Source: a virus. From it: 29,269 nucleotides of DNA. The notes beneath the pieces are model-generated. The model had not been told where the DNA came from, searched no databases, and saw nothing but the letters and a program-made list of their open reading frames with translations. Every line of letters starts with the position of its first letter. The first letter of the stretch is position 1. The position numbers and the translations under genes were made by a program. Location: the IMG/VR virus record IMGVR_UViG_3300020131_000008, positions 1 through 29,269 of that record, one strand, 5' to 3'. This document shows positions 4,624 through 29,269 of the stretch, one piece after another.

Positions 4624-4629
4624 GCAGGG

Positions 4630-5028: not shown

Positions 5029-5071
5029 GGAAGCATCTCACGAAAAAGAGAGTTGCGATCGCATTCCACCG

Positions 5072-5131
5072 CATGGAGCGGCCCGGAATGGCGCAATACG
5101 CGGGTACGCTATTGCGCTCTACGCGGGCTTG
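5072..5131. repeat. REP palindromic repeat, copy 3
   Basis: GGAATGGCGCAATACGCG, then GTACGCTATTGCGC and TACGCGGGCTT. It shares the GCGCAATA...TATTGCGC palindrome with copies 1, 2 and 4. It lies between the endonuclease remnant and the terminator of the CAP gene. Confidence 0.75.
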
Positions 5132-5140
5132 GGCTTAGTC

Positions 5141-5160
5141 AAAAAAACACTTCATGTGTA
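5141..5160 (-). terminator. Likely terminator of the CAP-domain gene
   Basis: On the minus strand a short ACAC/GTGT stem with a 5-base loop is followed by seven T, 14 bases after the stop codon. A second imperfect hairpin (CCTGT/ACAGG) lies at 5160-5190, overlapping the stop. The stem is short, so the strength is uncertain. Confidence 0.45.
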
Positions 5161-5173
5161 CCCCCTGTGAATG

Positions 5174-6688
5174 TTATAACAGGTGGGGGCAGTCGGTGAT
5201 ATGGCTGCATGCCCCGCCTCGGGTCGGGCATATAAACTCTCCGTGCGGACAGGTTGGGGTTGGTGGCGAATAGGGACAGGACATAGGCCCCAGCGTGGCA
5301 AAGAAACCCGCACCGCAACTCATCCCGCCGCTGTTTTTCGCGCATACCGCCAGCACAGCATCTCCTTCGCCCCAATACTCGGCATTGATGAGACCAATGT
5401 CGGAGACGACTCGAAACACCTCTGTTATAAAACCGCTACCGGCGGCGATAACAAACTCATCGGCGACGGGCAATGGGGCATTGCATACAATGCTCATATA
5501 GCTGCAGGTCGCGGTGCTACCCTCTGGGATATGACAGCCTATTGGAGCTGGTGGCGGGGAGGGTTGCTGTGTTAAGCCACCCGCTGTCGAGCCGAGCTGT
5601 TTTACATCCAAATGCACCGTGACATCGCCTTCATCGCTATTTTGATTTATCCGAATGTCATGTTTTCCAGATACCTGAATAGAAGCAGTGCTAGTGCCGA
5701 CGTGTTCCCATACGGGGTCATCGAAGAAAAAGAATGGACCATCGCGCTCCTTAACTGTACATGTAACAGAAACCGGCAGAACTCCGTCCTGAGTTAGCTT
5801 GTGATTAATGTCTCTATCTTTACCGGTATTGATCTCCACCATGGTAAAGAATTCTGTTTCCTGCTGGTTACCAAGCCGACAGGTAAGTTTCCAATCGCAT
5901 ATGCCAGCTTCCGGGCAGTCATTGACGTGCATTTTTGTAAAGGTAACTTCAACTCTCGTTTGCCCGTCAGGCGGGGGTGGAGGTGGAGGCTGCACTATGT
6001 AGGGACACGCGCCGAAATTCACGACGTAGGCCCCCTTTTCACTCTGCGCGTTCTGCGCCGGATCCTTATTCGCCACGTCCCCACGGACGCCGACGCCAAT
6101 CTCCTTGATCGCCGGATTTAGAATTGCCTCCCTGTGACCGGCCGTGCTTATATTCATCCACCAGTGGACGGCAAAGAATGGCGTCGAGCAGGCGCCAGGC
6201 GGACATTCGGTCACGTTGGTGCCCGCGCCATCTTTGGCGATCTCACTCACGAAGGTAGCGCCTTCCGGGCAGTATCCCGCGCGGTTTATGCGTGCCGCAA
6301 TCGCTTCGTTGCGTCCCAGTGGAATTGGAGGATTGGTCCCCGGTACGACGTCAACCTGCGGGTCGATGTGCGGATCGCTCTCACCCCACCATTTCAGGGT
6401 CACAGCCCGTTGCACGTGTCCATCGGCGGCGCTCGCCAATTTTGCGTTCGCGGACAACGCCGCCAGCCCGCGGCTGGTGCGTTCGGCATTAATAAGGCAA
6501 AGGATGGCATTACGTATTCGGTGACCTTGAGTTGCAAGGTCGATGGTGGACGGAGGGGTATTCACATCGGCGCCACATGTATCCTTACCTGCCAGTGGTT
6601 GCGCTCTGGCGGGAGTTACTACGGCACTCATAACGGTTGCGCAAAGGAGGATGAGCGCCATCGTGCCAGTCGGAGACAGTATTTTCAT
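5174..6688 (-). CDS. Secreted CAP (SCP/PR-1-like) domain protein
   Basis: From the chosen ATG (6688) the protein has 504 residues. Residues 1-29 are a signal peptide ending in ARA. Residues about 55-228 form a CAP domain: LINAERTSRGLAALS (65-79), H91 and H185 as the candidate cavity histidines, and GHREAILNPAIKEIGVGV (184-201). A run of eight prolines (about 233-240) links to a beta-rich region and a Cys-rich tail (several C-x(3-7)-C spacings) that probably forms disulfides outside the cytoplasm. GGAAGGGAAAA just upstream supports the 6688 start; the longer frame to 6868 overlaps the promoter. CAP proteins bind lipids or act in interbacterial or host contact; no precise role can be assigned. 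It is opposite to the phage operon and between REP copies, so it is probably cargo rather than a virion gene. Confidence 0.75.
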   Translation of the reverse strand: MKILSPTGTMALILLCATVMSAVVTPARAQPLAGKDTCGADVNTPPSTIDLATQGHRIRNAILCLINAERTSRGLAALSANAKLASAADGHVQRAVTLKWWGESDPHIDPQVDVVPGTNPPIPLGRNEAIAARINRAGYCPEGATFVSEIAKDGAGTNVTECPPGACSTPFFAVHWWMNISTAGHREAILNPAIKEIGVGVRGDVANKDPAQNAQSEKGAYVVNFGACPYIVQPPPPPPPDGQTRVEVTFTKMHVNDCPEAGICDWKLTCRLGNQQETEFFTMVEINTGKDRDINHKLTQDGVLPVSVTCTVKERDGPFFFFDDPVWEHVGTSTASIQVSGKHDIRINQNSDEGDVTVHLDVKQLGSTAGGLTQQPSPPPAPIGCHIPEGSTATCSYMSIVCNAPLPVADEFVIAAGSGFITEVFRVVSDIGLINAEYWGEGDAVLAVCAKNSGGMSCGAGFFATLGPMSCPYSPPTPTCPHGEFICPTRGGACSHITDCPHLL

Positions 6689-6839
6689 GGTTTTCCCTTC
6701 CTTGGGAGTGCGGAAGCCCGCGAGACTTAGAACAGCTATCGCCCCCAGACATACGATGTCGGCTGGCCGGAGTATCGCCACGGTGCCCTTTCGGTAGAGG
6801 CGAATAGAAACTTGAAACGTCCTGTTTTCCTTAAAGGCG

Positions 6840-6868
6840 ACGATATCGCTGGGCTGGTGAGTTGTCAA
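6840..6868 (-). promoter_or_regulatory. Sigma70-type promoter of the CAP-domain gene
   Basis: On the minus strand a consensus TTGACA (6868-6863) is followed after 17 bases by TATCGT (6845-6840). Transcription would start near 6833, giving a 5' leader of about 145 bases before the ATG at 6688. This makes the longer upstream reading frame unlikely to be used. Confidence 0.55.
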
Positions 6869-6940
6869 ACACGCGAATCTTTGGTCCCGGACAGGTTGAG
6901 TGCCGTAAGGTGGAATAAAGTATTCTCGGATCCCCCCGTA

Positions 6941-6996
6941 CGGAGCGGCCTCGGAATGGCGTAATACGCGCGCACGCTATTGCGCTCTACGCGCTG
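6941..6996. repeat. REP palindromic repeat, copy 4, in the 6689-7147 gap
   Basis: CGGAATGGCGTAATACGCG followed by CACGCTATTGCGC and TACGCG, the same unit as copies 1-3. The 459-base gap between the CAP start and the first structural gene holds the CAP promoter, this repeat, and the direct repeats at 7070-7122. No coding frame with family features is visible; in particular, nothing resembling a terminase is left. Confidence 0.75.
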
Positions 6997-7069
6997 TAAT
7001 TTCTCTTCGGCGTATTTTTAAAATCCGCCTGCCGCCTACCCGCCGTGCGTGGATCCATTCCCGCTCCCT

Positions 7070-7122
7070 AAAAATCGTCCCAAAAATCCCAAAAATCGTC
7101 CCATTTGCCGCTGAAATGGGAC
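7070..7122. repeat. Iteron-like repeats and 9-bp hairpin before the head operon
   Basis: AAAAATCGTCCC at 7070-7081 and 7091-7102, with a shorter AAAAATCCC between them (7082-7090). The second copy leads into a perfect palindrome GTCCCATTT-loop-AAATGGGAC at 7098-7122 (7-base loop). The element lies 26 bases before the gpW-like start. It could be a packaging or regulatory site or a protein-binding array; nothing in the sequence decides which. Confidence 0.5.
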
Positions 7123-7147
7123 AGCGCGGTCCGTAGCATCATGGACC

Positions 7148-7360
7148 ATGACGACCGCCGCCGAAATGCTGCAGAAATACCTGGACGCCGAAGCCGCCAT
7201 CCTGGAGGGGAAGACGGTGCGCTTCGGCGAGCGCCAGTTGACCCATGAGGATCTGCAATGGGTGCAGGCCGGCCGGCGCGAGTGGGAAGCCAAAGCCGCG
7301 GCCGAGACCGCCGCCGCGTTGGGCAAACCGGCGCGAAAACCCTTCCAGGTGGTACTGTGA
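7148..7360 (+). CDS. gpW-like head-tail joining protein (DUF6148-like)
   Basis: A 70-residue protein of the size and position of lambda gpW, directly before the portal gene. Features are an N-terminal helix (residues 3-20), a short beta hairpin (KTVRFGERQLTHEDL, 22-36) and a second helix (about 34-58), the alpha-beta-beta-alpha pattern of gpW-type proteins. gpW acts after DNA packaging to complete the head connector. Its stop overlaps the GTG start of the portal gene (GTGA), indicating coupled translation. It is the first gene of the structural operon; a terminase gene would normally precede it and is absent. Confidence 0.7.
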   Translation: MTTAAEMLQKYLDAEAAILEGKTVRFGERQLTHEDLQWVQAGRREWEAKAAAETAAALGKPARKPFQVVL

Positions 7361-16436: not shown

Positions 16437-18840
16437 CGAACAAGCGATCCTTCTCAAGATCCGCGGCGAAATCACCGACGCGCTGCGGGCGCTCGACCAG
16501 ACCACCGAGCGGCTGGACCGGCTCGGCCGGCAGGGGCGGAAGTCGGCGGCGGATCTCGACAGCATCGCGCGCTCGTCGCGGTTCACGGCGGCCAGCTTTG
16601 ACTTGATCCGCGGCGCCATCGCCGGGATCTCGATCGAGCGGTTCGTAACATCCACGGTCGGCGCGGCAAAGCAGGCCGAGAATTCCTTCAAGGGCCTCGA
16701 AGCCGTCGCCAACTTCGCGGGGATCGGCATCGGCCGCGCCTTTCAGGAAGCCGAAAAACTGGCGGCCGATGGCCTGATCACCGTCGCCGAGGCCTCCAAG
16801 TCACTGCAGAATCTGTTGAGCCGCGGCTACGACATCGATCAGGCCGTCACGACCATCCAGCGGCTCAAGGATGCGGCGGCCTTCAACCGGGCGGCTCATC
16901 TCGAACTCGGCGAAGCGGTGGTGACCGCGACCGAGGGTCTCAAGAACGAAAACTCGATTCTGGTCGACAACGCCGGCGTGACCAAGAACGTGTCGGTCCT
17001 CTGGAAGGAGTACGCGGCGCAGATCGGCAAAAGTGTCGACGATCTGACCGTCGCCGAGAAGATCCAGGCCGAGTACAACGGTATCCTCCTAGAGACCGAA
17101 GCGCAGCTCGGCAACGCCGCGAAAGCCGCCGCCGGCTGGCAAGGCGAGCAGGCGCGCCTGAATCAAGAGCTTTTCGCCTTCCAGGCGCAGCTGGGGCAAG
17201 CCTTGATCCCGGTATTGAGCGACCTCGCGCGATCCGGCACCTTCGTCATCGACAACTTCCTGAGGCCGTTCATCACCTTCGTGCAGGACGCGGGGCGGGG
17301 AACGGCGTTCCTGGTTCAGGCCATCCAGAATATCGGCTCGGGCGATTTCGACGCCCTGCGCCGGAATTATTTATTGCTGCTGCACGAACGCAAGATGTTC
17401 GAGCAGCAGGCCGCCAATACGCCGCAATCACCGACCGAAGGCGTGGACCCGGCCAAGCGGGCGGCGTTCGAAAAACGGCTGACGTTCGTGCCTCCCGAGC
17501 GCCCGAAAAAGCCGAAAGCCCCGAAGTCATCGGTAGTTGACGACGCCCGCCAGGCCACCCAGGCCCTCCTCGACTTGAGGCGAGCCGCCATCGGCACCGA
17601 GCTGGCCGACCAGCAAGCCGGGTTCGACCGGGGCGAAGCCGCCTTGAAGCGCCAGTTCGACCGCAACGTGATTGGGTACCGCACCTATTACGGCCGGCTC
17701 GCCGAACTCCGCCGGGCGGATCTCGACGCCCAGATCGAGGCTAAGCGCCAGGAAATCGAACTAGCCAACCAGTCGCTTGCCAATCTGCCCGCGGACCAGG
17801 GCCGCGCGGCCATCGACCAGGCTCGGATCCAGGGCGACATCGAACGGCTCGCGAGCGAGATCGGCCGGCTCGAAGCGCGGAAGTCCGACATCGTGCAGGA
17901 ATTCCAGGCGGACATCGCCGGCAAGGACCGGGAACTTGCCGACCAGCTCGACCAGTTCCGGCTCCGGCTGCTAGAAATCCAGGATCAGGCCAAGACTGAC
18001 GGCATCGACCTCGGCAACATCGTGCTGCCACCGGAAAGCCAACTGCTGTTCCAGCAGCGCCTCAAGGTGATGGAAAACCAATACCGGGAGTTTATCGCCC
18101 AGCTCCAGGCCTCGGGTAACCAGGAGGGCGTCGACCTGGTGCGGCAGGTGATCCGCGACGAAGCGGTGCTGGACGTCAAGACCAAGACCGATCAGATGAC
18201 CCAGTTCGCCCAGCGCTCGGCCGAAAACATGCAGGATGCCTTTGCCGACCTTCTGTTCGATCCCTTTCAGGATGATCTGTCCGGCATGGCGAAAAGCTTC
18301 TCGGACACGCTGCGCCGCATGGCGGCCGAGGCGCTGTCACAGGATCTTCTCGGGGCGCTTTTCGGGAACCAGTCGGGCGGCGCGGCGTCGTCCGCCGGCG
18401 GACTGTTGAGCGGTTTCGGCGACTTCTCGAAGGGCGGCGGCGGGATCGCGGGGTTCTTCTCCAACCTCCTGATGGCGTTCGGTTTCGACGAAGGCGGCTG
18501 GACCGGCCCCGGGGGACGCCGCCAGCCGGCCGGGGTGGTGCACGCGGGCGAATACGTCTTTTCGGCGCCCTCGGTCAACCGGTTCGGCGTCGGCTTCCTC
18601 GAGGCGCTCCATCACCTCACCAAGGGGCCGAGCGTCCCGAGTTTCGGCTATGCCAACGGCGGCCTCGTGGACCGGATGGCGGAGGCCTCCGCGGGCCACG
18701 CCCCGACCGGCTCGATCCGCATCATCAACACCGTCGATCCGAACCTGGTGCACGACTACCTGTCGAGCCCCGCAGGGGAACGGGTGATCGTCAACCACAT
18801 CCAGCGCAACGCCGGCGCGATCCGGCAGATAATCAAGTAA
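16426..18840 (+). CDS. Tail tape measure protein
   Basis: 804 residues from the ATG at 16426, supported by GGAAGGG at good spacing; an upstream ATG at 16396 adds 10 residues within the spanin gene. The N-terminal third is helical with SAADLDSIARSSRFTAASFDLIRGAIAGIS and a GLEAVANFAGIG hydrophobic region. The middle is a long charged coiled coil (RQEIELANQSLANLP, IERLASEIGRLEARK). The C-terminus carries GFDEGGWTGPGGRRQPAGVVHAGEYVFSAPSVNRFGVGFLEALH, a hallmark of tape measures. It sets tail length and is ejected with the DNA. Follows the G/T and lysis genes. Confidence 0.88.
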   Translation: MAANEQAILLKIRGEITDALRALDQTTERLDRLGRQGRKSAADLDSIARSSRFTAASFDLIRGAIAGISIERFVTSTVGAAKQAENSFKGLEAVANFAGIGIGRAFQEAEKLAADGLITVAEASKSLQNLLSRGYDIDQAVTTIQRLKDAAAFNRAAHLELGEAVVTATEGLKNENSILVDNAGVTKNVSVLWKEYAAQIGKSVDDLTVAEKIQAEYNGILLETEAQLGNAAKAAAGWQGEQARLNQELFAFQAQLGQALIPVLSDLARSGTFVIDNFLRPFITFVQDAGRGTAFLVQAIQNIGSGDFDALRRNYLLLLHERKMFEQQAANTPQSPTEGVDPAKRAAFEKRLTFVPPERPKKPKAPKSSVVDDARQATQALLDLRRAAIGTELADQQAGFDRGEAALKRQFDRNVIGYRTYYGRLAELRRADLDAQIEAKRQEIELANQSLANLPADQGRAAIDQARIQGDIERLASEIGRLEARKSDIVQEFQADIAGKDRELADQLDQFRLRLLEIQDQAKTDGIDLGNIVLPPESQLLFQQRLKVMENQYREFIAQLQASGNQEGVDLVRQVIRDEAVLDVKTKTDQMTQFAQRSAENMQDAFADLLFDPFQDDLSGMAKSFSDTLRRMAAEALSQDLLGALFGNQSGGAASSAGGLLSGFGDFSKGGGGIAGFFSNLLMAFGFDEGGWTGPGGRRQPAGVVHAGEYVFSAPSVNRFGVGFLEALHHLTKGPSVPSFGYANGGLVDRMAEASAGHAPTGSIRIINTVDPNLVHDYLSSPAGERVIVNHIQRNAGAIRQIIK

Positions 18841-19712
18841 TGGCGTACGAAACCGGCACCGTCACCGACGCCAGCGGCTCCTACGCGCTGGCGCATCAGA
18901 ACCTCCTTGAGCGGATCAAAACCCAAGTCACCAGCGCCGTGTTCATGGGTGCGGGCCAGGCCTGGGTGGCCGAGCGCTATGTCACCACGGGCGACCATGA
19001 ATTGATCCTGCGCGGGCCCGGTCTCTCCGGCACCGAGGAGATCTACGTCGGCATCAAGCTGTACCACGACGCCAATGCGGACTATTACAACTGCAAGGTG
19101 GCGGCGTTCACCGGCTATGTGTCGAGCAACACCTTCGAAGCCCAGCCCGGTGCCTCGGGAATGCTGGGGGTCCCCCTGCACAACCAGTCCATCACCTATT
19201 GGCTGATTGCGAATAGCCAGCGCATCGCCCTGGCGGCCAAGGTCGGAACCCCCGTGTACGAGAGCTTTTACCTTGGCAAGTTCCTGCCGTATGCGACGCC
19301 CTCCCAATATCCGTACCCGGTGATTGCAGCCGGGATGCTGACCTCGGCTTCCGCGACCCGGTTTTCGGAGACGACCCACTCGATGCCGTGCAAGGGTACG
19401 CGGGCCAACCTGCAAATGCGGTTCGTGGACGGGGTGTGGAAACAGCCGGACGCCTGGCCGTGGAACAACACCACGTTGGCCGGCAATACGTATCAGATGC
19501 GGGAGTCTCCGGGCGATCACTACCCGCTTCTGCCCGTTATCCTGAACGACTCAACCCCCAACATTTACGGGGAATTGGACGGGATCTATTACGTGTCCGG
19601 CTTCAACAATGCGGTCGAAAACACGATCACCGTAGGCGGTGACACCTATCTCGTGGTGCAGGATGTCTGGCGCACCTCCCACATCGACTATTTTGCTATG
19701 AAGCTGGCGTAA
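18840..19712 (+). CDS. Tail-tip structural protein, MAYETGT family (first copy)
   Basis: 290 residues; the ATG overlaps the tape measure stop (TAATG). Recognisable pieces: MAYETGTVTDASGSYALAHQNLLERIKTQV at the N-terminus, AERYVTTGDHELILRGPGLSGTEEIYVGIKLYHDANADYYN, and FLPYATPSQYPYPVIAAGML. Proteins of this pattern occur after the tape measure in many proteobacterial siphophages and are annotated only as tail or virion proteins. The gene that follows begins similarly (MAYQTGTANNASALKSIIETF), so the two may be diverged paralogues. A beta-rich tail-tip role is inferred from position. Confidence 0.7.
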   Translation: MAYETGTVTDASGSYALAHQNLLERIKTQVTSAVFMGAGQAWVAERYVTTGDHELILRGPGLSGTEEIYVGIKLYHDANADYYNCKVAAFTGYVSSNTFEAQPGASGMLGVPLHNQSITYWLIANSQRIALAAKVGTPVYESFYLGKFLPYATPSQYPYPVIAAGMLTSASATRFSETTHSMPCKGTRANLQMRFVDGVWKQPDAWPWNNTTLAGNTYQMRESPGDHYPLLPVILNDSTPNIYGELDGIYYVSGFNNAVENTITVGGDTYLVVQDVWRTSHIDYFAMKLA

Positions 19713-19716
19713 GACC

Positions 19717-20649
19717 ATGGCGTACCAAACTGGCACCGCGAATAACGCCTCCGCACTTAAATCGATCATCGAGACCTTCGCTACGGCCAATGGCTGGACG
19801 CTGGCCTCCGGCATTCTGAGTAAAGGCCAATCGAATGTGCGGCTGATCGCGATCAATACCGATCAGGGAATTCAGCTCGAAGGGGCGAATAGCGCCGATT
19901 TTTCGACCGGCGTCGCCCCGAACTGGGCACAAGTGTACGTTCCGACCGCGCAATGGCCCATTACCTATCATTTGTTCGCGCACGGGTCACCCGACACGTT
20001 CGTGTGCGTGCTCAATTACAACGTCAACTCGTTCCAGTACCTGGCCTTTGGGGACATTACGAAATTCGGCACCTGGACCGGCGGAAATTGGTTTTCGGCG
20101 ACGATGGGGCAAGCGTCGCTGGTGGTCCCCTCGATGACGGTCAGAGCGGCTATCGAGAATGTCACGCCCATATTGTCAGGTCAGACCACGACGACATCGA
20201 GTTATATCGAAAGCTCCTCTGGCGGCATCCTGGTCTATTCCACCAGTGGGTCAAGTACCCGCGCCGGCGGCTCCTTTATGCATGCCGAAATCGACGGGGT
20301 GATCTGGGCGCGGCCCCTTGATACCGATACGGTTCGCATCTCTGCGGGGGAGGGGACAGGGCGGTTGATCGGTCGTATGCCTAATGCCTGGAATGCCCAG
20401 GCCGTGCTGTTGCCGTATCTGTTGACGGCCAAACGGCCGTCCAACAAAATCAGCTTGATCGGGGAGATCGGCCATCTGCGGCATTTACGCATCGACAACT
20501 ACAACCCAGGCGACCTCATCACCTTGGGGGTGGACCGGTGGAAAGTGTTTCCCTGGATACAAAAAGACACCGATTCGAGGGATGGCGTTTTTTGGGACTA
20601 TCACAAGTCCGGTACGATGGGCTGGGCAATTAAGTACGACGGTCCGTAA
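19717..20649 (+). CDS. Tail-tip structural protein, MAYQTGT family (second copy)
   Basis: 310 residues. The N-terminus (MAYQTGTANNASALKSIIETFATANGWTLASGIL) parallels the preceding gene, and the PITYHLFAHGSPDTFVCVLNYNVNSFQYLAFGDI segment parallels its IYVGIKLYHDANADYYNCKVAAFTGY. The rest diverges, with Ser/Thr-rich strands (TTTSSYIESSSGG). It starts 4 bases after the previous gene with no strong binding site and ends directly at the next ATG. A tail-tip or adsorption-apparatus role is inferred from its place between tape measure and hub genes. Confidence 0.68.
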   Translation: MAYQTGTANNASALKSIIETFATANGWTLASGILSKGQSNVRLIAINTDQGIQLEGANSADFSTGVAPNWAQVYVPTAQWPITYHLFAHGSPDTFVCVLNYNVNSFQYLAFGDITKFGTWTGGNWFSATMGQASLVVPSMTVRAAIENVTPILSGQTTTTSSYIESSSGGILVYSTSGSSTRAGGSFMHAEIDGVIWARPLDTDTVRISAGEGTGRLIGRMPNAWNAQAVLLPYLLTAKRPSNKISLIGEIGHLRHLRIDNYNPGDLITLGVDRWKVFPWIQKDTDSRDGVFWDYHKSGTMGWAIKYDGP

Positions 20650-22356
20650 ATGGTCGCTTACGCCGGTTCCCGTCCCGGCTCCCCGATCCAGTCATCCGAT
20701 TGGTACTACCTGACGGATGCGCTGAATCAGTACGCGGTCGATTACTGGTTTCCGCACGCCTCGGTCACCGGTACCAGGGTTTCCGGGGCGTACACCAAGA
20801 ATTACCCGGTCAGCCAGGATAATATCCGCAGTCGGGCGGGAGTCCTAGGACATGGATTTAGGCGTGATTGGTACGACCGGGTCCACATTGTCCCCGCGAG
20901 CATCGACCTCGGCAACCTCTTGTCCAGCCAGACCCGTGAAATCGAGGTCTGGAATGCTCATTTCACAGACCAACTGTTGTCGGGAATTGCCGGCACCGGC
21001 ACCTCTGGCCTGACCCTGACCCCGCCCAGCGGGCTCAACCCGCCGACTACCTTCGCGCCCCTGGAATCCCGGTTTTATGAACTTAAGATCAACAACGACG
21101 GAGCGCCCCAGATCAATGCGGCTTATACCTTCTCGTTCCTGGCCGAAACCCCGAGGCTCCAAGTCACCGGCAGCCGCGTGACGATCTGGAAGACCCGCCC
21201 GAACTGGGTGCGGGACGTGATCGAGCGCTGGCAGTGGCTGACCGATGTCCTCACCGCCTACGATAACTCGGAGCAACGGGTCAAGCTGAGGGCCAAGCCC
21301 CGGCGCGAGTACGAATTCCAGGTCACGACCTGGGCGCGGGAGCGGCAGGAGATGGAGAATGCGCTGTGGGGGTGGCAGCATCGCCTGTTCGCCGTGCCCA
21401 TCTGGCAGGACCGGCGCCAGCTGCTCGCCGGGGCCTCGGCCGGGGGTTCCGCCTTGACCGTGGACACGACGAACACCGAGTTCGAGGCGGGGGGCCTGGT
21501 CATCCTGACCGATCACGAAGGATTGGCCGAGGCGCAAGAAATCTTGACGGTCTCCTCGGGGTCCCTCGCGCTGAAGCTCACCTTACAGAACGCCTGGCCG
21601 GAGGGGACCTATGCCTACCCTGCGCGGCTCGGTCGGATTGGCGACCAGCAGCGGCTGGCGCGGCTGACAGCGGACGTGGCCGAGCTGATCGTGACCATTC
21701 GGTTCGAGGACACCGGGACGGTTTGGGCGGCCCAGGATTCGACCCCCACCTACCGGGGGCTTCCGGTCTTGGAAGACAAGCCGAACTGGGCAGGCGATTT
21801 GGAGGCCGCGCTGTTCCACAAGATCCACGAGGTTGATTACCAGACCGGTGCGATTTTCGTGGAGTACGAGGGCACGGTCCCGAACCGGTTGCAGCAGTTC
21901 CGCTGGCTCCTCGACAGTCGGACCGAGATCGATCGGTACCGGAAATGGCTGTACGCCCGTGCGGGGCGTCTGATCCCGTTTTGGTTGCCGAGCCAGACGG
22001 TGGATTTCGTGGCGACCCAGCCCATCGGGGGCGGCTCGACCCAGCTCACCGTCCAGAACGTCGGCTACACCCAGTTCGCCCGTCAGCAAAATGGCCGGAA
22101 GGACCTCCGGATTCAGCTCAACACTGGCACGATCTACTATCGCCGGGTGCTGGACGCCGCCGTGTTGTCCACCGACGAAGAAACCCTGCAACTCGATACG
22201 GCCCTGAGTGCTTCGCCGATCCAGCCCTCGGACATCCGCCTGGTGTCGTTCCTGTCGCTGGCGAGGCTCGATCAGGACCAGCTTGAGATCGCCTGGCGCA
22301 CCGACCAGATCGCCGAATCGGCCCATAACGTAAGGACGCTTCACTATGACGTATAG
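20650..22356 (+). CDS. Large tail-tip protein, 568 aa, probable distal tail component
   Basis: The ATG directly abuts the previous stop. The sequence contains an N-terminal region with WYYLTDALNQYAVDYWFPHASVTGTRVSG, a beta domain around IEVWNAHFTDQLLSGIAG, and a long DTail-like region: VKLRAKPRREYEFQVTTWARERQEMENALWGWQHRLFAVPIW, then repeated beta strands. The pattern of WNA.F..Q and the R-x-E-Y-x-F-x-V region is seen in large tail-tip proteins that precede the BR0599-type hub gene. I infer that it links the tube to the hub; the fold cannot be confirmed by eye. It overlaps the next gene by 11 bases. Confidence 0.65.
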   Translation: MVAYAGSRPGSPIQSSDWYYLTDALNQYAVDYWFPHASVTGTRVSGAYTKNYPVSQDNIRSRAGVLGHGFRRDWYDRVHIVPASIDLGNLLSSQTREIEVWNAHFTDQLLSGIAGTGTSGLTLTPPSGLNPPTTFAPLESRFYELKINNDGAPQINAAYTFSFLAETPRLQVTGSRVTIWKTRPNWVRDVIERWQWLTDVLTAYDNSEQRVKLRAKPRREYEFQVTTWARERQEMENALWGWQHRLFAVPIWQDRRQLLAGASAGGSALTVDTTNTEFEAGGLVILTDHEGLAEAQEILTVSSGSLALKLTLQNAWPEGTYAYPARLGRIGDQQRLARLTADVAELIVTIRFEDTGTVWAAQDSTPTYRGLPVLEDKPNWAGDLEAALFHKIHEVDYQTGAIFVEYEGTVPNRLQQFRWLLDSRTEIDRYRKWLYARAGRLIPFWLPSQTVDFVATQPIGGGSTQLTVQNVGYTQFARQQNGRKDLRIQLNTGTIYYRRVLDAAVLSTDEETLQLDTALSASPIQPSDIRLVSFLSLARLDQDQLEIAWRTDQIAESAHNVRTLHYDV

Positions 22357-23161
22357 CGTTTACGAAGAATCGGCCTATTCCGGGCAGCCGGTCGAGTTGT
22401 ATGAATTCCAGCGGGGGGTCGATTATTGGCGTTTCACCTCGGCGGATGAGGACCGGACCTATAACGCCCAGACCTTTACCTGGACGCCGATCACCCGCTC
22501 GACGCTGGACGAAACTTCGGAACTGAACCGAACTAACCTCGAAATCACGGTGCAGCGGGACAACCCGGTGGCGGAGCTGTTCCGGCTCTATCCGCCCGGC
22601 GCGGTCGTGACGGTCAAGATTTGGCGACTGCACCGGGGCGATACGGACGCCGCCCTGGTCTGGATGGGGCGGGTGCTCAATTGCGAATGGCTCGCCGGCG
22701 GCGAAGCGGTCCTCCACTCGGAGCCCGCGTACACGTCGATCCGCCGCAACGCCCTCCGGCGGCACTACCAGCGGCAATGCCCCCATGTGCTCTACGGCCC
22801 CGCCTGTCGGGTCAATCAAGCGGCGTTTAAAGTCACGGGCACAGTGGCCGTCCTCAATGGGTCCTCCGTGCAGATCAATGCCGCTGGGGGTTATGACGAC
22901 GGTCATTTCGCCGGAGGGTTCATCGAATGGAACAGCTCGGCTGGGGTGTCCGACAACCGGCTGATTACCGACCACACGTCGGTCACCCTGGTGATGGCCG
23001 CGCCGATCATCGGCTTAGCCGTGGGGGATACGGTCAACTTGTACCCGGGGTGCGACCACACCTTGAACACCTGCAATACCAAGTTTTCGAATCACCTGAA
23101 CTACGGCGGATGCCCCTACATCCCGCTCAAGAACCCCTTCAACTTGCAGACCTTGTACTGA
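22346..23161 (+). CDS. Tail hub protein, BR0599/DUF2163 family (gpL-like)
   Basis: 271 residues. The N-terminal part (YEFQRGVDYWRFTSADEDRTYNAQTFTWTPI) and ELNRTNLEITVQRDNPVAELFRLYPPGAVVTVKI are characteristic of this family. Cys residues at 145, 154, 236, 243 and 256 (CPHVLYGPAC, CDHTLNTC, GGCPYIPLKNPF) resemble the C-terminal Cys set that binds an iron-sulfur cluster in lambda gpL and in gene transfer agent hubs. Cluster binding here is inferred from the spacing. The protein would sit at the tail tip between the distal tail protein and the J-like protein. Its ATG lies inside the previous gene. Confidence 0.85.
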   Translation: MTYSVYEESAYSGQPVELYEFQRGVDYWRFTSADEDRTYNAQTFTWTPITRSTLDETSELNRTNLEITVQRDNPVAELFRLYPPGAVVTVKIWRLHRGDTDAALVWMGRVLNCEWLAGGEAVLHSEPAYTSIRRNALRRHYQRQCPHVLYGPACRVNQAAFKVTGTVAVLNGSSVQINAAGGYDDGHFAGGFIEWNSSAGVSDNRLITDHTSVTLVMAAPIIGLAVGDTVNLYPGCDHTLNTCNTKFSNHLNYGGCPYIPLKNPFNLQTLY

Positions 23162-23162
23162 G

Positions 23163-23465
23163 ATGGACGCACAGGCTTTCGCCCACCAGCTCCTCGATCA
23201 AGTGCCCCTGATCCTCCTGGTCATGGGCTGGGACGACCTGATCTACATCGCCATCCTCCTGGCCACCACGGCCTTGTCGATGGCCTTGGCGCCCAAGCCG
23301 CCGAAGCCGAAACCGGCGGTGTTGAGCGATTTCGACGTGCCGACCGCCGAAGAGGGGCGGCCGATCCCGGTGGTGTTCGGAACCGTCACGGTCAAGGGGG
23401 CGAACGTCATCTGGTATGGCGACCTTGGGACCAAGGCCATCAAGAAGAAGGGGGGCAAGAAATGA
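23163..23465 (+). CDS. Small tail-assembly protein with membrane helix
   Basis: 100 residues, starting 1 base after the hub gene. A hydrophobic helix (about residues 12-46, with LILLVMGWDDLIYIAILLATTALSMAL) is followed by a Pro/Lys stretch (PKPPKPKPAV) and a region with ADEEGRPIPVVFGTVTVKGANVIWYGDL (here AEEGRPIPVVFGTV...), which is typical of the N-terminal part of J-type tail-tip proteins and of small genes just before J. It probably corresponds functionally to the K/I positions in lambda; this is inference from position. The basic tail overlaps the next ATG. Confidence 0.6.
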   Translation: MDAQAFAHQLLDQVPLILLVMGWDDLIYIAILLATTALSMALAPKPPKPKPAVLSDFDVPTAEEGRPIPVVFGTVTVKGANVIWYGDLGTKAIKKKGGKK

Positions 23466-23665
23466 TGATTAAAGTTCATCACGCCCGGAGCCTCTATGGC
23501 ATTAAGGGCTATTGCAGCCGGGGCATGAGGAGTTTCGCGGCCCGGCATAGGCTGGACTGGGAGAAATTCCTCACGGACGGCATCCCCGAAGAAGAGTTGC
23601 TCGCGACCGGCGACGACATGGCGCGTCAGGTGGTTGAGCACGCGCATCGGATGGAGGAGACCTAA
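23462..23665 (+). CDS. Small tail-associated protein, 67 aa
   Basis: The ATG overlaps the previous stop (ATGA) and its stop overlaps the J-like ATG (TAATG), so it is embedded in the operon. The protein has a short beta start (MIKVHHARSLYG), a Lys/Arg-rich middle (CSRGMRSFAARHRLDWEKFLTDG) and an acidic helix (EEELLATGDDMARQVVEHAHRME). Proteins of this size and pattern precede J-type genes in several siphophages without known function. Confidence 0.6.
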   Translation: MMIKVHHARSLYGIKGYCSRGMRSFAARHRLDWEKFLTDGIPEEELLATGDDMARQVVEHAHRMEET

Positions 23666-25839
23666 TGGGCTTCGGGAGCAAAAAGCAGACTGTTGGCTAC
23701 AAGTACTATATCGGGATGCACATGGCGGTGTGTTATGGCCCGGTGGACGAGGTGCAGCAGATCATTGTCGGGGATCGGGTGGCCTGGTCCGGGGCCGTCA
23801 CCAGCACCCAGGATGTGACGGTCAGCGCGGAGAGTCTCTTCGGGGGCGAGAAACGGGAGGGGGGCATCTCGGGTACGGTCGGCTTCAAATTCGGGGACGC
23901 CAATCAAGCCCAGGACAGTTATCTGGCCGCCAAGCTGGGGGCGAACTGCCCCGCCTTTAGGGGCATTCTGTCCTTCGTCCTGAAGAAGGTCTACATCGGC
24001 AACAACCCCTACCTCAAAAACTGGGCGTTCAGGCTCAAGCGCCTGCCGGCCAAGGGCTGGGACGACGCCAAACGGGACATTGGGGGACACGCCAACGCCG
24101 CGCACATCATCTACGAATGCGTTACCGATCCCGACTGGGGCATGGGCTACCCGGCGAGTTCCCTGGATGACCTTAAGTTCAAAGCGGTGGCGGACACGCT
24201 CTACGCGGAGGGCTTCGGGCTGTCCCTGCTCTTCAACCAGCAAGGACCGATTCAGGATTTCATCCAGCAGGTGCTCAACCACATCGGCGCGGTGTTTAGG
24301 CTCAACCAGACCACGGGGCTGTTTGAACTCAAGCTGATTCGGAGCGACTACACCCCGACGAGCTTGCCACTCCTCGATGAATCGAATGTCGTCTCGCTCG
24401 ACAGTTACCAGCGGGCGGCCTGGGGCGAGACGGTCAACGAGATCGTTCTCCAGTACACCACTGCCGACGAAAAGGACAGGTCGATCACGGTCCAGGATCT
24501 CGGGAATATCCAGATCCAGGGCGGAGTGGTCAGCGAGACGATCAGCTACCCCGGTATTCGGGACGATGCCCTCGCCCAGCGGGTGGCCCTTCGTGAACTT
24601 AAGGTCAGATCGACCCCCTTGGCGAAGATCCGCTTAACGATCAATCGCAAGGGCTGGAACCTCCACGCCGGGGACGTGTTCCGGTTTTCCTGGGCCAAGC
24701 TCGGGCTGTCCGAGGTGGTCTTCCGGGTCGGTCAGGTTCAGGGCGGAATCCTTCAGAACGGACGGATCACGCTGGAAGCCGTCGAGGACATCTTTGGTCT
24801 GCCCACCAACAGCTATGCCGCCCAGCAGCCGGTCGGCTGGACCAGCCCCAACAACGCCCCCGCCATTGCCCCTTACCGGCTGGTATACGAAGCGCCTTAC
24901 TGGGATTTGGTCCGCGCTTTTGGCGAGGCCGATGCCCAGGTGCTCCCGGCTGACGCCGGTTATCTGGTCGCGGCGGGGGTCCGGCCTTCCTCCGATGCGC
25001 TCAATTTCACCTTGATGACCCGAACCGGCTCAAATGCCTATGCGGATCAGGGCGTCGGGGATTTCTGCCCGACCTGCACGCTCGTCCAGGCCCTCGCGCC
25101 AGCGGTCAGCAGCACGATTGCCTACACCGGGGGCGTCGATATGGAGGATGTCGCGGTCGGGGATTACGCAGTCATTGGCGGCACGGAATGGGTGGCGGTC
25201 ACGGCACTCAATGTGGAGGCGGGGACGGTGACCGTGGATCGGGGCATTCTTGACACCGTGCCTACGGCCCACGCCGCCGGGACCCGGATGTTCTTCCCCT
25301 ACGACTTCAACGGCTTCGACCAGACCGAATGGCTGGTTGGCGAGACGATCAACGCGAAAATCCTGCCGACCACCGGGATGGGAACCCTGGCGGAGGCCTC
25401 GGCCCCCGCGGACAACCTGATCATGAACCGGCGCCAGGCACGGCCCTACCCGCCAGGCAACGTGCAAGTAAACGGCCAGCGCTGGCCGGTCGCCACGACC
25501 GGCACCCTGAGTCTGACCTGGTCGCACCGAGACCGCGTGCAGCAGACGGCGGGCTTCATCAAGCAGGACGCCGGCAACATCGGGCCGGAGTATGGCGTCA
25601 CCTACACCTTGCGCCTCTATGACGAGACCAACACGTTGCGAAGAACCGTGAATCTATCTGCGGCCAATTACGTCTGGTCGGTCGAGGAGGCAGACTGCGG
25701 ACTCGGACGGCTGAACGCCCATGTCCGCTTCGAGTTGGAGGCGGTACGGAGCGGCTATGTGTCTCTGCAACAGCACAACATCGAATTCGACCGGGCCGGC
25801 TACGGCCTGCACTATGGATCTTACTATGGAGGTATCTGA
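23665..25839 (+). CDS. Host-specificity/tail tip protein, J-like
   Basis: 724 residues. The N-terminal half has the J/TipJ landmarks: GYKYYIGMHMAVCYGPVDEVQQIIVGDRVAWSG, KKVYIGNNPYLKNWAFRLKRLP, DWGMGYPASSLDDLKFKAVADTLYAEGFGLSLLF, then a run of beta modules. The C-terminal third contains a FN3-like region (PGNVQVNGQRWPV, TLSLTWSHRDR) and ends GLHYGSYYGGI. It would form the central tail tip and contact the host receptor. Two internal stretches, GACCTTAAG at 24169 and CTTAAGGTC at 24598, recur in the decayed copy near the right edge. It overlaps both neighbours. Confidence 0.85.
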   Translation: MGFGSKKQTVGYKYYIGMHMAVCYGPVDEVQQIIVGDRVAWSGAVTSTQDVTVSAESLFGGEKREGGISGTVGFKFGDANQAQDSYLAAKLGANCPAFRGILSFVLKKVYIGNNPYLKNWAFRLKRLPAKGWDDAKRDIGGHANAAHIIYECVTDPDWGMGYPASSLDDLKFKAVADTLYAEGFGLSLLFNQQGPIQDFIQQVLNHIGAVFRLNQTTGLFELKLIRSDYTPTSLPLLDESNVVSLDSYQRAAWGETVNEIVLQYTTADEKDRSITVQDLGNIQIQGGVVSETISYPGIRDDALAQRVALRELKVRSTPLAKIRLTINRKGWNLHAGDVFRFSWAKLGLSEVVFRVGQVQGGILQNGRITLEAVEDIFGLPTNSYAAQQPVGWTSPNNAPAIAPYRLVYEAPYWDLVRAFGEADAQVLPADAGYLVAAGVRPSSDALNFTLMTRTGSNAYADQGVGDFCPTCTLVQALAPAVSSTIAYTGGVDMEDVAVGDYAVIGGTEWVAVTALNVEAGTVTVDRGILDTVPTAHAAGTRMFFPYDFNGFDQTEWLVGETINAKILPTTGMGTLAEASAPADNLIMNRRQARPYPPGNVQVNGQRWPVATTGTLSLTWSHRDRVQQTAGFIKQDAGNIGPEYGVTYTLRLYDETNTLRRTVNLSAANYVWSVEEADCGLGRLNAHVRFELEAVRSGYVSLQQHNIEFDRAGYGLHYGSYYGGI

Positions 25840-26192
25840 TGGCATCGACCGAGCCGCGCAGCGGACTCAAATATGCCTGGGGCACTGGCTTCAACGGGTG
25901 GGGAGCGGACATGGACGCCAACCTGCTCTTGATCGGCCGCTTCGGCTTTCACCTGAGCATCAAGGATCGCGACCTGACGGCTCCACCCGGCACGCCGATG
26001 ACCGGTGACACCTACATTTGCGCCGCCGGCAGCACAGGCGCCTGGGCCGGCAAGGATGGGCAGGTTGCGATCTACGACGGCGCGGCTTGGCAATTCGGCA
26101 CGCCACGCATCGGCTGGGTCGCCTACATCGAGGACGAGGAAAAGCTGAGCGCCTACAAGGCCGCGGGCTGGAGCGCGGGGGTAGCACTATGA
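25839..26192 (+). CDS. DUF2793-type phage protein
   Basis: 117 residues. GLKYAWGTGFNGWGADMDANLLLIGRFGFHLSIKDRDLTAPPGTPMTGDTYICAAGSTGAWAGKDGQVAIYDGAAW and the IGWVAYIEDEEKLSAYKAAGW ending are the pattern of the DUF2793 family, found at the tail-fibre end of phage operons. The family is thought to be a virion decoration or fibre component, but the function is unproven. Its ATG overlaps the J-like stop, and its stop overlaps the next ATG. Confidence 0.75.
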   Translation: MASTEPRSGLKYAWGTGFNGWGADMDANLLLIGRFGFHLSIKDRDLTAPPGTPMTGDTYICAAGSTGAWAGKDGQVAIYDGAAWQFGTPRIGWVAYIEDEEKLSAYKAAGWSAGVAL

Positions 26193-26629
26193 GCGCGAAA
26201 ACGAATTACGCTGAGAACAAGATCATCGATTGGCTGTTCCGCGGCCAACCCCTCACGCCGCCCGCTACCTGGTACGTCGGCTTGTTCCTCAGCAACCCGA
26301 GCGACGCCGGGAACGACAGCGTGGAGGCTACTGGCGGCAATTATGCCCGCGTCGCCGTGGCCAGCAACCTGACCAATTGGGCCGGCACTCAGGGCGCCGG
26401 TACGACGACCGCTTCGAGCGGGACCAGCGGCACGACCTCGAACAATGTGACCGTGACCTTCCCGACCCTGACGGCGGATATTGGAACGGCCGTGGGATTT
26501 GGATACTGGGACGCGCCGACCGGGGGGAATCTCTGGATCAAGGGGGCACTGGCCCAAGCGAAGCCGTTACTCACCGGCGACACCCCGGAATTCCCCCCAG
26601 GAACTCTACAATACCAAGAGGATGATTGA
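26189..26629 (+). CDS. Tail fibre-associated protein, 146 aa
   Basis: From the ATG at 26189 (ATGA overlap; the frame is open upstream only as shadow). The protein has KTNYAENKIIDWLFRGQPLTPPATWYVGLFLSNPSDAG, a recognised pattern of small phage tail-fibre proteins, then Thr/Ser/Gly-rich strands (AGTTTASSGTSGTTSNNVTVTFPTLTAD) and GTAVGFGYWDAPTGGNLWIKGAL. It probably attaches fibres or forms a short fibre; the exact role is unknown. Its stop overlaps the next start. Confidence 0.7.
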   Translation: MSAKTNYAENKIIDWLFRGQPLTPPATWYVGLFLSNPSDAGNDSVEATGGNYARVAVASNLTNWAGTQGAGTTTASSGTSGTTSNNVTVTFPTLTADIGTAVGFGYWDAPTGGNLWIKGALAQAKPLLTGDTPEFPPGTLQYQEDD

Positions 26630-27771
26630 TGACTACGAACGTCAAACTGTTTAAATCCACCAATGTCGGAGCCCCCGCCCTTACGGGCCAGGCGGGCTCC
26701 CTGATCGCCCTGCTCGACGCCATCCTGGTCAACGGCTACAACGCCGGATCGGTGACCTCCATCACCCGCAGCGGCTCAACCGCCACCGCGACCCGCGCTG
26801 GGCACGGCTTCCAGATCGGGGACTGCATTCTCAACGAAGGGGTGGATCAGGCCGAGTATAACGGCGAGTTCTATATTACAGCGGTAACGGCAGACACATA
26901 TCAATTTACCGTGTCTGGCACCCCGGTATCGCCCGCGACCGGCGTCCTGACTTCCAAGAAAGCACCCTTGGGCTGGACCAAATCCTATTCGGGCACTAAC
27001 AAAGCGGTCTATCGGCAGTTGGGCGGCAACCTCATGTACCTGCGCGTCGATGACGCCGGAACCTCCACTGCGCGGGTGGTGGGTTACGAATCCATGGTCG
27101 ATGTGGATACCGGCACAAACCCGTTCCCCGCTGGTACGCAGATCTCGGGCGGATTGTATTGGAGCAAAAGCAGCACCACCGATGCGACGGCGCGACCCTG
27201 GTTGCTCGTCGGCAACGACCGGCTGTTCTATCATCAAATCAACCCGAACAGTGATGGCACCGCCTCCAGTTCCATGGTGTTCAGCTTCGGTGACATCAAG
27301 AGCTACAAGGTCGGAGACGCTTTCGGCACCTGGATTGTCGGTGGTACCTCCGCTTCGGTGACTTCGAACAATCTCTTACACCATCTCGTGAACTCCATAG
27401 CATCGCCAAGCGCAGGCCACTTCCTGGGGAGGAGCTTCACTCAGGCTGGAAGTTCTCTGAATTTCGGCAAGCACAGCGATTATGTAAAAGGCCAAACGGC
27501 TTCCGCCATGGGTTCAAGCGGTATGAGCTACCCTAGTGGCCCTGACTCCAGCCTTTATCTGTCCCCGGTTTGGGTACATGAGCCGACCGGCCCGCATCTG
27601 CGGGGCGAGGCGGTGGGGTTGTGGAATCCGCTCCACGCCCGGCCTCTGTCGAATTGGGACACGTTTGAAGGTGCGGCAGGATCGGTCTTGGCAGGTAAGA
27701 AGTTCATAGCCGTGAACATGTACACCAGCGCTCAAGCGTTTCTTGAAATCAGCAACACCTGGAGCTTCTGA
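26629..27771 (+). CDS. Probable receptor-binding or tail fibre protein, 380 aa
   Basis: Starts with ATG at 26629, overlapping the previous TGA; a TTG one codon upstream is less likely. The N-terminal 30 residues (NVKLFKSTNVGAPALTGQAGSLIALLDAIL) may anchor it to the tail. A beta module follows (SITRSGSTATATRAGHGFQIGDCI, YNGEFYITAVTADTYQFTV), similar in style to FCCH-type add-on domains in phage proteins. The rest is a long beta-rich, Ser/Thr-rich region ending in FLEISNTWSF, which could be a receptor-binding domain. No catalytic motif is visible. Confidence 0.65.
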   Translation: MTTNVKLFKSTNVGAPALTGQAGSLIALLDAILVNGYNAGSVTSITRSGSTATATRAGHGFQIGDCILNEGVDQAEYNGEFYITAVTADTYQFTVSGTPVSPATGVLTSKKAPLGWTKSYSGTNKAVYRQLGGNLMYLRVDDAGTSTARVVGYESMVDVDTGTNPFPAGTQISGGLYWSKSSTTDATARPWLLVGNDRLFYHQINPNSDGTASSSMVFSFGDIKSYKVGDAFGTWIVGGTSASVTSNNLLHHLVNSIASPSAGHFLGRSFTQAGSSLNFGKHSDYVKGQTASAMGSSGMSYPSGPDSSLYLSPVWVHEPTGPHLRGEAVGLWNPLHARPLSNWDTFEGAAGSVLAGKKFIAVNMYTSAQAFLEISNTWSF

Positions 27772-28139
27772 TGGCGGATCTAGGACCCATCGGCGTTAGC
27801 CGTACTCAATCCTACGCTTCACGCTTGTGGGAGACCCCGGCGTTCTCGACGAAACGAAGCGGCGGCACTTACTCGCGCAGTTGGGATCTACCGGTGGGCG
27901 GCTCAGGCCAACTCAGCGGCGTCGTTAAGCAAGCCGGCACACCAGTGTCCGGCCGTTGGGTACGGCTTTATTACCGCAAGACTGGCGGTCTGATCGGCTC
28001 CGTCCAAAGCGGGGTCAACGGTGAGTTCTCGTTCGGCGGCCTCGATCCGGGCGCCCAATATTTCGTGATCGCGTTTGATGACCTGAATCAAGCGCCTGAC
28101 TTCAACGCCGTGATCTTCGATCTGTTGACGCCGGTATGA
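27771..28139 (+). CDS. Tail fibre accessory protein with carboxypeptidase regulatory-like domain
   Basis: 122 residues; the ATG overlaps the previous stop. Residues about 47-122 (GQLSGVVKQAGTPVSGRWVRLYYRKTGGLIGSVQSGVNGEFSFGGLDPGAQYFVIAFDD) form an Ig-like beta sandwich of the carboxypeptidase-regulatory type, often found in surface-exposed virion proteins. The first 45 residues are Ser/Thr-rich and polar. Its stop overlaps the next ATG. Confidence 0.7.
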   Translation: MADLGPIGVSRTQSYASRLWETPAFSTKRSGGTYSRSWDLPVGGSGQLSGVVKQAGTPVSGRWVRLYYRKTGGLIGSVQSGVNGEFSFGGLDPGAQYFVIAFDDLNQAPDFNAVIFDLLTPV

Positions 28140-28483
28140 GCTATACCCCACCGGTCGGCAACGCCGTCATTTGCGATTTTCAGGGCAGTTACACGCCGCC
28201 AGCCGGCAACTCGACGGTTCTGGAATTTAGCGTAGGGCAGCTAGGTCTGGCCGGCCTGGCAAGAGCCGCCAGTTCGGCACAGGCCGCGCTTTCCGTCCGC
28301 CGCTCGCTGGCGACCGTGGCGGCCAGCGTCAGCCTAACCACCGGCATCCTGGTGGCGCCGGTCCCGTTGCAGCTAGTTTGTACCACGGCATCCCGTAGCC
28401 GTCTTTCGACGGCCTTGCCGGTACGCCGGCCGATGACCGGCGTTTCCGCAGGCAGAAGCACGGCGTCGGCGAAATTGTATTAG
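28136..28483 (+). CDS. Tail protein with repeated YTPPxGN motif
   Basis: 115 residues. Two copies of the motif YTPPVGNAV/YTPPAGNSTV at about residues 3-11 and 19-28, each followed by a short strand ending F (CDFQG, LEFSVG), a motif seen in phage tail-fibre end proteins. The rest (about 35-112) is Ala/Ser/Leu-rich, low in complexity, and may be poorly folded or a stalk. It is the last intact structural gene; sequence after it is decayed. Confidence 0.6.
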   Translation: MSYTPPVGNAVICDFQGSYTPPAGNSTVLEFSVGQLGLAGLARAASSAQAALSVRRSLATVAASVSLTTGILVAPVPLQLVCTTASRSRLSTALPVRRPMTGVSAGRSTASAKLY

Positions 28484-28524
28484 CCGATCTGTGGGTCTTC
28501 AGAGACTGTTTAAGCCAGGCGCCC

Positions 28525-28664
28525 CTTAAGGTCCCCCGCGTGGACTGGGGGGCGATCTGACCTTAAGTTCAAAAGGAAAGCCCCGGAGAGACCTTCTTTC
28601 CTAAAATCAGGCCCCCTAAAAGTAGCACACCTTCAGCGTCTAGCTGGGCGGTGAACTTAAGGTC
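28525..28664. repeat. CTTAAGGTC inverted-repeat cluster after the last tail gene
   Basis: CTTAAGGTC at 28525-28533 and 28656-28664, and its inverse GACCTTAAG at 28559-28567. The first two flank CCCCC and GGGGG, giving a cruciform-like structure. The same nonamer occurs twice within the J-like gene (24169-24177 inverted, 24598-24606 direct). A further GGAAAG/CTTTCC hairpin lies at about 28573-28600. The stretch 28484-28652 holds no coding frame with family features. Confidence 0.55.
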
Positions 28665-29027
28665 AAATCGACGTCCCTCGCAAAAATAAGGCTAACGGTA
28701 AATCGCCAGGGATGGCATTTGCATTCTGGAGATGTGTTCCGTTTTTCTTGGGCGAAGCTTGGGCTCTCCGAAGCGGTCTTTCGTGTTGGTAAAGTCCAGG
28801 GCGGAACCTTGCAGGACGGGCGTATTACCATTGAGGCAGTCGAGGACATCTTCGGCTTGCCGACCAACACTTACGCTGCGCAGGAGCCGGTCGACTGGAC
28901 CACCCCGAACAACGCCCCGGCCGCGGCGCCGTACCGGCTGGTGTACGAGGCCCCTTATTGGGATACAGTCCGCGCTTTCGGTGAGGCCGACGCCCAGGTG
29001 CTGCCGTCCGATAACCGCTGTTCATAA
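28653..29027 (+). pseudogene. Decayed partial copy of the J-like tail tip gene
   Basis: From 28653 the frame reads ELKVKSTSLAKIRLTVNRQG and continues WHLHSGDVFRFSWAKLGLSEAVFRVGKVQGG, aligning without gaps to J-like positions 24594-24950 over about 118 codons, then diverges at VLPSDNRCS and stops. Most nucleotide differences are at third codon positions, so the two copies were both under selection before this one was truncated. The copy lacks the first ~300 and last ~300 residues of a J-like protein. Upstream scraps (GACTGGGG near 28543, GACCTTAAGTTCAAA at 28559) also occur in the J-like gene at similar order, implying internal deletions. Confidence 0.8.
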
Positions 29028-29053
29028 GTGATAAGAGAAAGCGGCCTTAGCGT

Positions 29054-29076
29054 GCGGCAACACGCCGCTGATTTTT
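29054..29076 (+). terminator. Rho-independent terminator-like hairpin
   Basis: GCGGC at 29054-29058 pairs with GCCGC at 29064-29068 around a 5-base loop (AACAC), and five T's follow at 29072-29076. It would end transcription of the late operon. The stem is short but GC-rich. Confidence 0.5.
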
Positions 29077-29078
29077 GG

Positions 29079-29112
29079 TGTGCCGTATTTGTGCCGAAAC
29101 CTCTGGGCACAC
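29079..29112. repeat. GTGCC repeats, possible integrase arm-type sites
   Basis: TGTGCCG at 29079-29085 and 29090-29096, spaced by 11 bases (one helical turn), and an inverted GGCACAC at 29106-29112 pairing with GTGTGCC at 29078-29084. Short repeats of this kind beside a tRNA attachment site often bind a tyrosine integrase. A hairpin function cannot be excluded. Confidence 0.35.
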
Positions 29113-29142
29113 CTTCGTAAATTCTATAAGTTATTGATTTTA

Positions 29143-29192
29143 TGGCGCCCCGGATACGATTCGAACGTACGACCTTCCCCTTAGGAGGGGGA
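29143..29192 (-). tRNA. 3' half of tRNA-Arg(CCT), attachment-site remnant
   Basis: On the minus strand the sequence shows the anticodon stem and loop (TCCCC, loop CTCCTAA with anticodon CCT, GGGGA), the variable region, the T arm (GTACG-TTCGAAT-CGTAT), the 3' acceptor strand CCGGGGC, G and encoded CCA. The 5' acceptor strand GCCCCGG and D arm are missing: bases beyond 29192 are unrelated and AT-rich. It is therefore a partial tRNA gene, as left when an element integrates within a tRNA. tRNA-Arg(CCT) is a known integration target (argW in Escherichia coli). Confidence 0.75.
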
Positions 29193-29249
29193 TAAAAGCG
29201 CCTTTTAGATCAAAAGGTTATCTAAGCTAATTTATAGATATCTATTATA

Positions 29250-29262
29250 AATCAATCGCTTA
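29250..29262 (+). promoter_or_regulatory. IHF-type site near the attachment remnant
   Basis: AATCAATCGCTTA matches the IHF consensus WATCAANNNNTTR at every defined base, in an AT-rich context 58 bases beyond the tRNA fragment. IHF sites are expected in the arms of tyrosine-integrase attachment sites. One match of this degeneracy could occur by chance. Confidence 0.4.
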
Positions 29263-29269
29263 ATATCAC

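Follow-up and report, generated by a model that had tools for sequence, protein, structure and literature searches.

Beyond the last tail gene of the virus DNA analysed here (all 29,269 nucleotides of the stretch taken from IMG/VR record IMGVR_UViG_3300020131_000008, called the window below and itself a genome fragment) lies a second, partial copy of a J-like tail gene. We regard it as probably a piece of recombination debris, namely an internal part of the J gene of a second related phage, situated where the tail operon ends and ahead of an attachment-type sequence from tRNA-Arg(CCT).

The intact J-like gene of the window (23665..25839, forward strand) encodes a predicted tail hub or tip attachment protein of 724 amino acids. 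It matches phrog_1101 (E 1.6e-303), carries a Phage-tail_3 domain at residues 192-358, and aligns over residues 1-724 with chain 8rk3_o of the JBD30 baseplate (phmmer, E 1.6e-136). By sequence match it is a member of the J-like tail hub family. The end-to-end match to one chain of that baseplate, within what PMC11445458 presents of it (PDB 8RK3), is a comparison with a different phage and concerns the intact gene only, the fragment being left out. The J search in viral loci took the best 80 of 127; in an annotated phage collection the whole J protein was placed 845 times in 759 records.

When the window is compared with itself, the fragment extends over 28651..29006 (forward strand) in the same orientation as intact J, with 277 of 356 bases identical (77.8%) and no gaps. 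Its 118 codons (28653-29006, E 5.9e-78) correspond to J residues 311-428, i.e., to the end of the Phage-tail_3 domain and the part that follows it; the C-terminal portion of J is not covered, and both ends of the 724-codon gene are missing. All 118 codons are free of stops and frameshifts. After them come a few codons without clear homology and a stop codon at 29025-29027. By itself, the open reading frame 28719-29024 matches no Pfam family at 0.01. The original prediction described, at 28525-29027, the decayed remains (118 codons) of a second J-like gene, located after the last tail gene and differing mostly by synonymous changes. The duplicate is real, its place 3' of the last tail gene (which ends at 28483) is right, and 48 of the 65 differing codons are indeed synonymous. 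The span was too long, as clear homology to J is confined to 28651-29006; positions 28484-28650 are not J, except for a 25-base inverted patch and perhaps 28634-28651. "Decayed" describes the loss of both ends and does not suit the 118 open codons.

The pattern of substitutions bears on the origin of the fragment. Compared with the J gene of the same window (own J), the fragment has 48 synonymous and 17 nonsynonymous codon differences, which gives dN 0.096 and dS 1.36 by the NG86 method. The same method gives dN 0.097 and dS 0.86 for own J versus the J gene of L005, the nearest longer relative, so the values of the fragment are within the range of intact genes. Changes private to the fragment, i.e., bases that differ from both own J and L005, comprise 27 synonymous and 11 nonsynonymous ones; the private ratios of the intact genes are 21:11 for own J and 17:12 for L005. 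With a further relative (L111) added as a reference the ratios become 21:10 for the fragment, 15:9 for own J and 7:6 for L005. If single bases of the fragment changed at random, 75% of the changes would be nonsynonymous, and the observed share of 11 of 38 is to be set against the approximately three quarters expected under unconstrained drift. The private-change ratios and the dN/dS values together indicate a lineage apart from own J, in which protein constraint acted on the fragment until recently. Judged from these sequence comparisons, it is probably a piece from a foreign lineage of the same phage group and not a decayed self-copy. Thus the suggestion that it is a trace of another phage's tail module gains support from the divergence (dS 1.36) and from the selection pattern (27 synonymous to 11 nonsynonymous private changes).

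Over its length the fragment is 78% identical both to own J and to the J gene of L005, and 73% or less to the remaining genes; no donor J was found among the genes compared. Its third-position GC content is 0.68, against 0.80 for own J and 0.90 for L005. The first five 60-base windows of the fragment are closer to own J and have a third-position GC of 0.40-0.55, and the last five are closer to L005 with 0.70-1.00; the donor may itself have been a mosaic. In a FastTree phylogeny the fragment and own J are joined with support of 0.97 and with long branches, and hence the donor may be a sister lineage. The same pairing, together with the presence of both copies in one window, could be read as the result of copying a part of own J, which has decayed since. 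The string GAACTTAAGGTC, common to the fragment and own J and lacking in six relatives, favors such a self-duplication as well. We consider this origin improbable in view of the 78% identity, the prevalence of synonymous differences and the low nonsynonymous share of the private changes.

The original prediction also proposed that a nonamer framed the copy and that recombination at it had produced the scrap. The nonamer GACCTTAAG/CTTAAGGTC does occur five times in the window, versus 0.12 expected: at 24169 and 24598 within J and at 28525, 28559 and 28656 outside the intact gene. It was said to lie at the start of the copy and at matching places of the gene. This holds for a single pair (28656 and 24598) and fails for 28525, which matches J across its nine bases only, and for 28559. 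The latter is a part of 16 bases shared in direct orientation between 28558-28573 and 24168-24183, with an E-value of 0.72 when the complete window is searched and of 0.001 when only J is, and a score of 16 versus a shuffle maximum of 13. This direct match is not independent, since 14 of its 16 bases lie within the inverted 25-base match described below; the overlap exists because the nonamer motif is nearly its own reverse complement. The fragment starts with a run of 15 identical bases. A run of at least 15 appears in 8702 of 10,000 mismatch shuffles, and one beginning at the first position in 234 of 10,000; the run is unremarkable and needs no special event.

The nonamer is missing from both corresponding places in the J genes of the six relatives, and on this ground it was rejected as a conserved site. 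Among the 83 records of the J search it was found in L004, a record nearly identical to the window, and once each, outside J, in L040 and L057; the 16-base form is present in 10 IMG/VR stretches, including L004. Two nonamers within own J arose in 4 of 2000 synonymous shuffles (the motif was picked post hoc), and exact inverted 14-base pairs are frequent in J (553 of 2000 shuffles). The homology of the fragment, as judged from its sequence, may moreover extend upstream past the nonamer. With the nonamer lacking in the J genes of the six relatives, we do not uphold nonamer recombination as the origin of the scrap.

What remains for this idea is the inverted patch of 25 bases at 28547..28571 (reverse strand), a near-copy of J positions 24618-24594 (24 of 25 bases, E 4e-4). 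Its score of 22 exceeds all 200 dinucleotide shuffles, whose maximum is 13. The patch agrees with own J wherever own J and the fragment differ inside it, and its right edge is the J position at which clear homology of the fragment starts. This points to some rearrangement that involved J close to this position, possibly by template switching. Directly 5' of the fragment (28634..28651, forward strand, one base out of frame) the peptide QRLAGR resembles QRVA[ML]R of the relatives and could be an upstream continuation; none of 5000 shuffles did as well in this post hoc test. Should this match be genuine, the start of the fragment would lie elsewhere than at the nonamer. Wider tests, which take in this stretch, gave nothing above chance: local alignment of 28572-28651 with six J genes was within shuffles (best L008, 195 of 1000), as was a global alignment restricted to the final 30 bases (best L005, 140 of 2000), and 7 of 60 shuffles were equally good in a frameshift-tolerant profile scan. 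Decayed J across the whole spacer was therefore rejected, the six codons adjoining the fragment alone having stood out, post hoc. A stable RNA structure in 28484-28680 was rejected too (z -1.49; 14 of 200 shuffles fold equally well), and Rfam had no match in the same interval.

On the left side the fragment is preceded by the last tail-region gene (28136..28483, forward strand, 115 amino acids), which has no Pfam or PHROGs match. A search with its product matched L004 alone; a relative exists in L005 and was missed by that search. DNA homology to L005, which does not carry the fragment, continues through this gene and stops at 28500 by BLASTN. At 28484..28504 there are, by eye, the apparent final codons of a gene on the reverse strand, the complete form of which is present in L005 (12818-13102), and this interval is the approximate junction to unrelated DNA. 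Beyond the region of homology L005 has this reverse-strand gene, a pilin gene and, farther on, integrase, primase and antirepressor genes. The pilin gene (L005 13278-13751, type IV pilin, PF00114) lies approximately 450 bases after the last tail gene. JBD30, from which the solved relative comes, uses the type IV pilus for attachment according to PMC11445458, so a pilin carried by a phage might alter receptor use.

On the right side, a terminator-like hairpin with a T-run (29020..29075, forward strand) resembles what follows the tail genes in L009 (11093-11140; E 1.2e-4, with 79% identity across 48 nt). A terminator scan gave 4 sites versus 1.8 in shuffles. In L009 the hairpin is followed by a gene that reads, by eye, like a DNA adenine methylase. 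Farther on, 135 bases from the end of the fragment, is the 3' half of a tRNA-Arg(CCT) (29142..29191, reverse strand) with no proper 5' half. It is 86% identical over 50 nt to a complete tRNA-Arg(cct) found by ARAGORN in L101 and also matches the annotated tRNA-Arg of two Vibrio phages. Its Rfam tRNA match is weak (23.9 bits, gathering score 29), and ARAGORN found no tRNA in the window. From its sequence the tRNA half is probably an attachment-site remnant or an attP core; its orientation fits neither a simple attL nor a simple attR of a prophage on its left. Positions 28505-29269 may be phage or host DNA. Neither the hairpin nor the tRNA half has an exact IMG/VR match. Six-frame peptides of 1-7200, 28484-28650 and 29007-29269 had no match at 1e-3 among 110 loci, a search in which a J segment served as the control and did match. 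A distant DNA search of the right end hit only the tRNA stretch, in 3 phage records and 9 plasmid records.

A relative, G005 (L008), is integrated in tRNA-Arg(CCT): a complete tRNA stands at its left end beside the integrase, and an exact 44-base repeat of it stands at the right end just after the J-like gene. This group thus does have a J gene next to tRNA-Arg(CCT), and a neighbor of that kind could be the source of the fragment. The ends are not equivalent, because at the place where G005 repeats the 5' part of the tRNA, the window carries its 3' half. The best word shared by the ends of another genome, G002, is an exact 18-base repeat (2397-2414 and 50141-50158), plausibly an att repeat. 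Two relatives of the J-like gene (L086 and L087) occur in the same contig (DYKZ01000001.1) of one MAG, separated by approximately 56 kb; a single host genome can thus contain two related J genes.

The left part of the window holds other features. A C4 antisense RNA (73.8 bits, above gathering) was found in the region 3261-4319, together with a1/b1-target-like and isrK-like matches below gathering. A KilA-N gene with matches to transcriptional-regulator and anti-repressor PHROGs follows the C4 RNA, and the region is presumably an immunity region of the P1/P22 type. Repeats of 40-101 bases, 81-88% alike and with inverted parts (1840-1938, 4626-4723, 5059-5129 and 6926-6993), are possibly a small mobile repeat.

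The same arrangement is found in L004 (IMG/VR 3300021066_000114, metagenome 3300021066), which matches window positions 17761-29027 with 6 differences in 11,267 bases: none in J, none in the fragment and one in the spacer. It has the same fragment junction up to 29027, and the record ends at the stop codon of the fragment, as would be expected of a provirus record trimmed to genes. L004 1-54 and window 17701-17760 diverge inside the tape measure gene, which reflects a fork in the assembly or, alternatively, a rearranged form. Since L004 comes from a metagenome, which also contains a second J-like phage (L006), one might think of two phage contigs joined in assembly. The presence of the joined sequence in L004 as well makes such an artefact very unlikely, with the reservation that L004 may be non-independent of the window.

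A present role of the fragment was considered in two forms. One is that the open reading frame 28719-29027 (102 amino acids, TTG start) is expressed as a functional small gene, e.g., as a decoy hub that hinders related phages. The frame is open and a terminator-like hairpin comes after it; yet the start falls inside the domain, and no sigma-70-type promoter-like site was found in 28100-29269 by a scan of this type only (0.4 expected by chance). The fragment protein also stands at a single place per record in all 637 matching records of the annotated phage collection, and at a single place in each of the 91 matching loci out of 110 (the loci of the window and of L004 left out). Given this, we hold a functional small gene to be very doubtful.

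The other form, raised by the original prediction as a donor for tail-tip exchange, is a store of a J variant that replaces part of the intact gene through an exchange, either homologous or site-specific, with the GACCTTAAG sites as its joints. It would account for a nonamer cluster above chance, for a fragment that is intact and in frame, and for the inverted J patch that adjoins it. Against these points, the window has no match to PF00239 (serine invertase), PF00589 or PF00078, although the window is a genome fragment and such genes may lie outside it; the reverse transcriptase family PF00078 is absent from all 7 records searched, the window included. The nonamers are lacking in the J genes of the six relatives, and the identity of own J to these relatives has no consistent step at the nonamers (24-codon windows, by eye). 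L004 has the same arrangement with zero differences inside J, so this one near-identical record provides no exchanged allele of the kind predicted for strains. The fragment corresponds to residues 311-428, which take in the end of the domain at 192-358 and the part behind it, and not to the C-terminal part. An invertible cassette would have its partial copy inverted; here the fragment is direct and the 25-base patch alone is inverted. The pattern of a diversity-generating retroelement is absent as well, the own-gene bases at the 79 mismatches being C 35, G 19, T 16 and A 9. Relatives of the fragment protein were found in 6 loci, with a second copy in L004 (as L110) alone. The window and L004 apart, the fragment protein has at most one match per record or locus, so nothing in the searched set hints at a donor arrangement that recurs. 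Although possible, a donor role is unsupported, and we rate the exchange cassette as very unlikely; a maintained hub-sequence donor, for which the clustered CTTAAG-centred sites and the inverted patch would be the places of strand exchange with J, seems to us still less credible.

The arrangement has parallels among known systems. Invertible tail-fibre segments of the Mu/P1 type have a partial second copy of a tail gene and inverted repeats nearby. The window likewise has a partial tail-gene copy and an inverted sequence; unlike those segments it has no PF00239 match, its inverted patch is only 25 bases long, and the fragment is oriented as J. A further parallel is the gene remnants that mosaic recombination leaves in defective or grounded prophages: the account given in PMC6379469 names, as causes of grounding, resected att sites and homologous recombination when a related phage superinfects. 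As far as that account goes, such remnants are like the window in that a gene from a related phage, cut short, lies close to attachment-type sequence of a tRNA, and differ in that here the partial copy lies near the intact copy of the same gene and is accompanied by a short inverted patch. PMC3945230 deals with temperate phages that recombine with defective prophages by a relaxed form of homologous recombination, in which prophage sequence can be the donor to a related phage. To the extent that this source describes the system, the fragment could in principle serve as a donor in the same way; unlike there, no exchange is seen for the fragment (J of L004). The fragment is likely a prophage gene remnant or recombination relic.

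We propose that two related phages or prophages most likely met at this locus, and that illegitimate joining (through microhomology or non-homologous) kept approximately 118 codons of the J gene of the second phage, the remaining sequence of that gene being lost. The order of these events and the role of the tRNA site in them are inferred, and the fragment presumably has no function at present; its open frame fits a recent truncation, and a selected function would fit too. Were the fragment a true donor, it would allow the hub to vary in a simple way, which the present evidence does not require. As debris, it records that related siphophages recombined in the neighborhood of a tRNA-Arg site, and it is a clear case in which the substitution pattern separates a foreign fragment from a self-duplicate.
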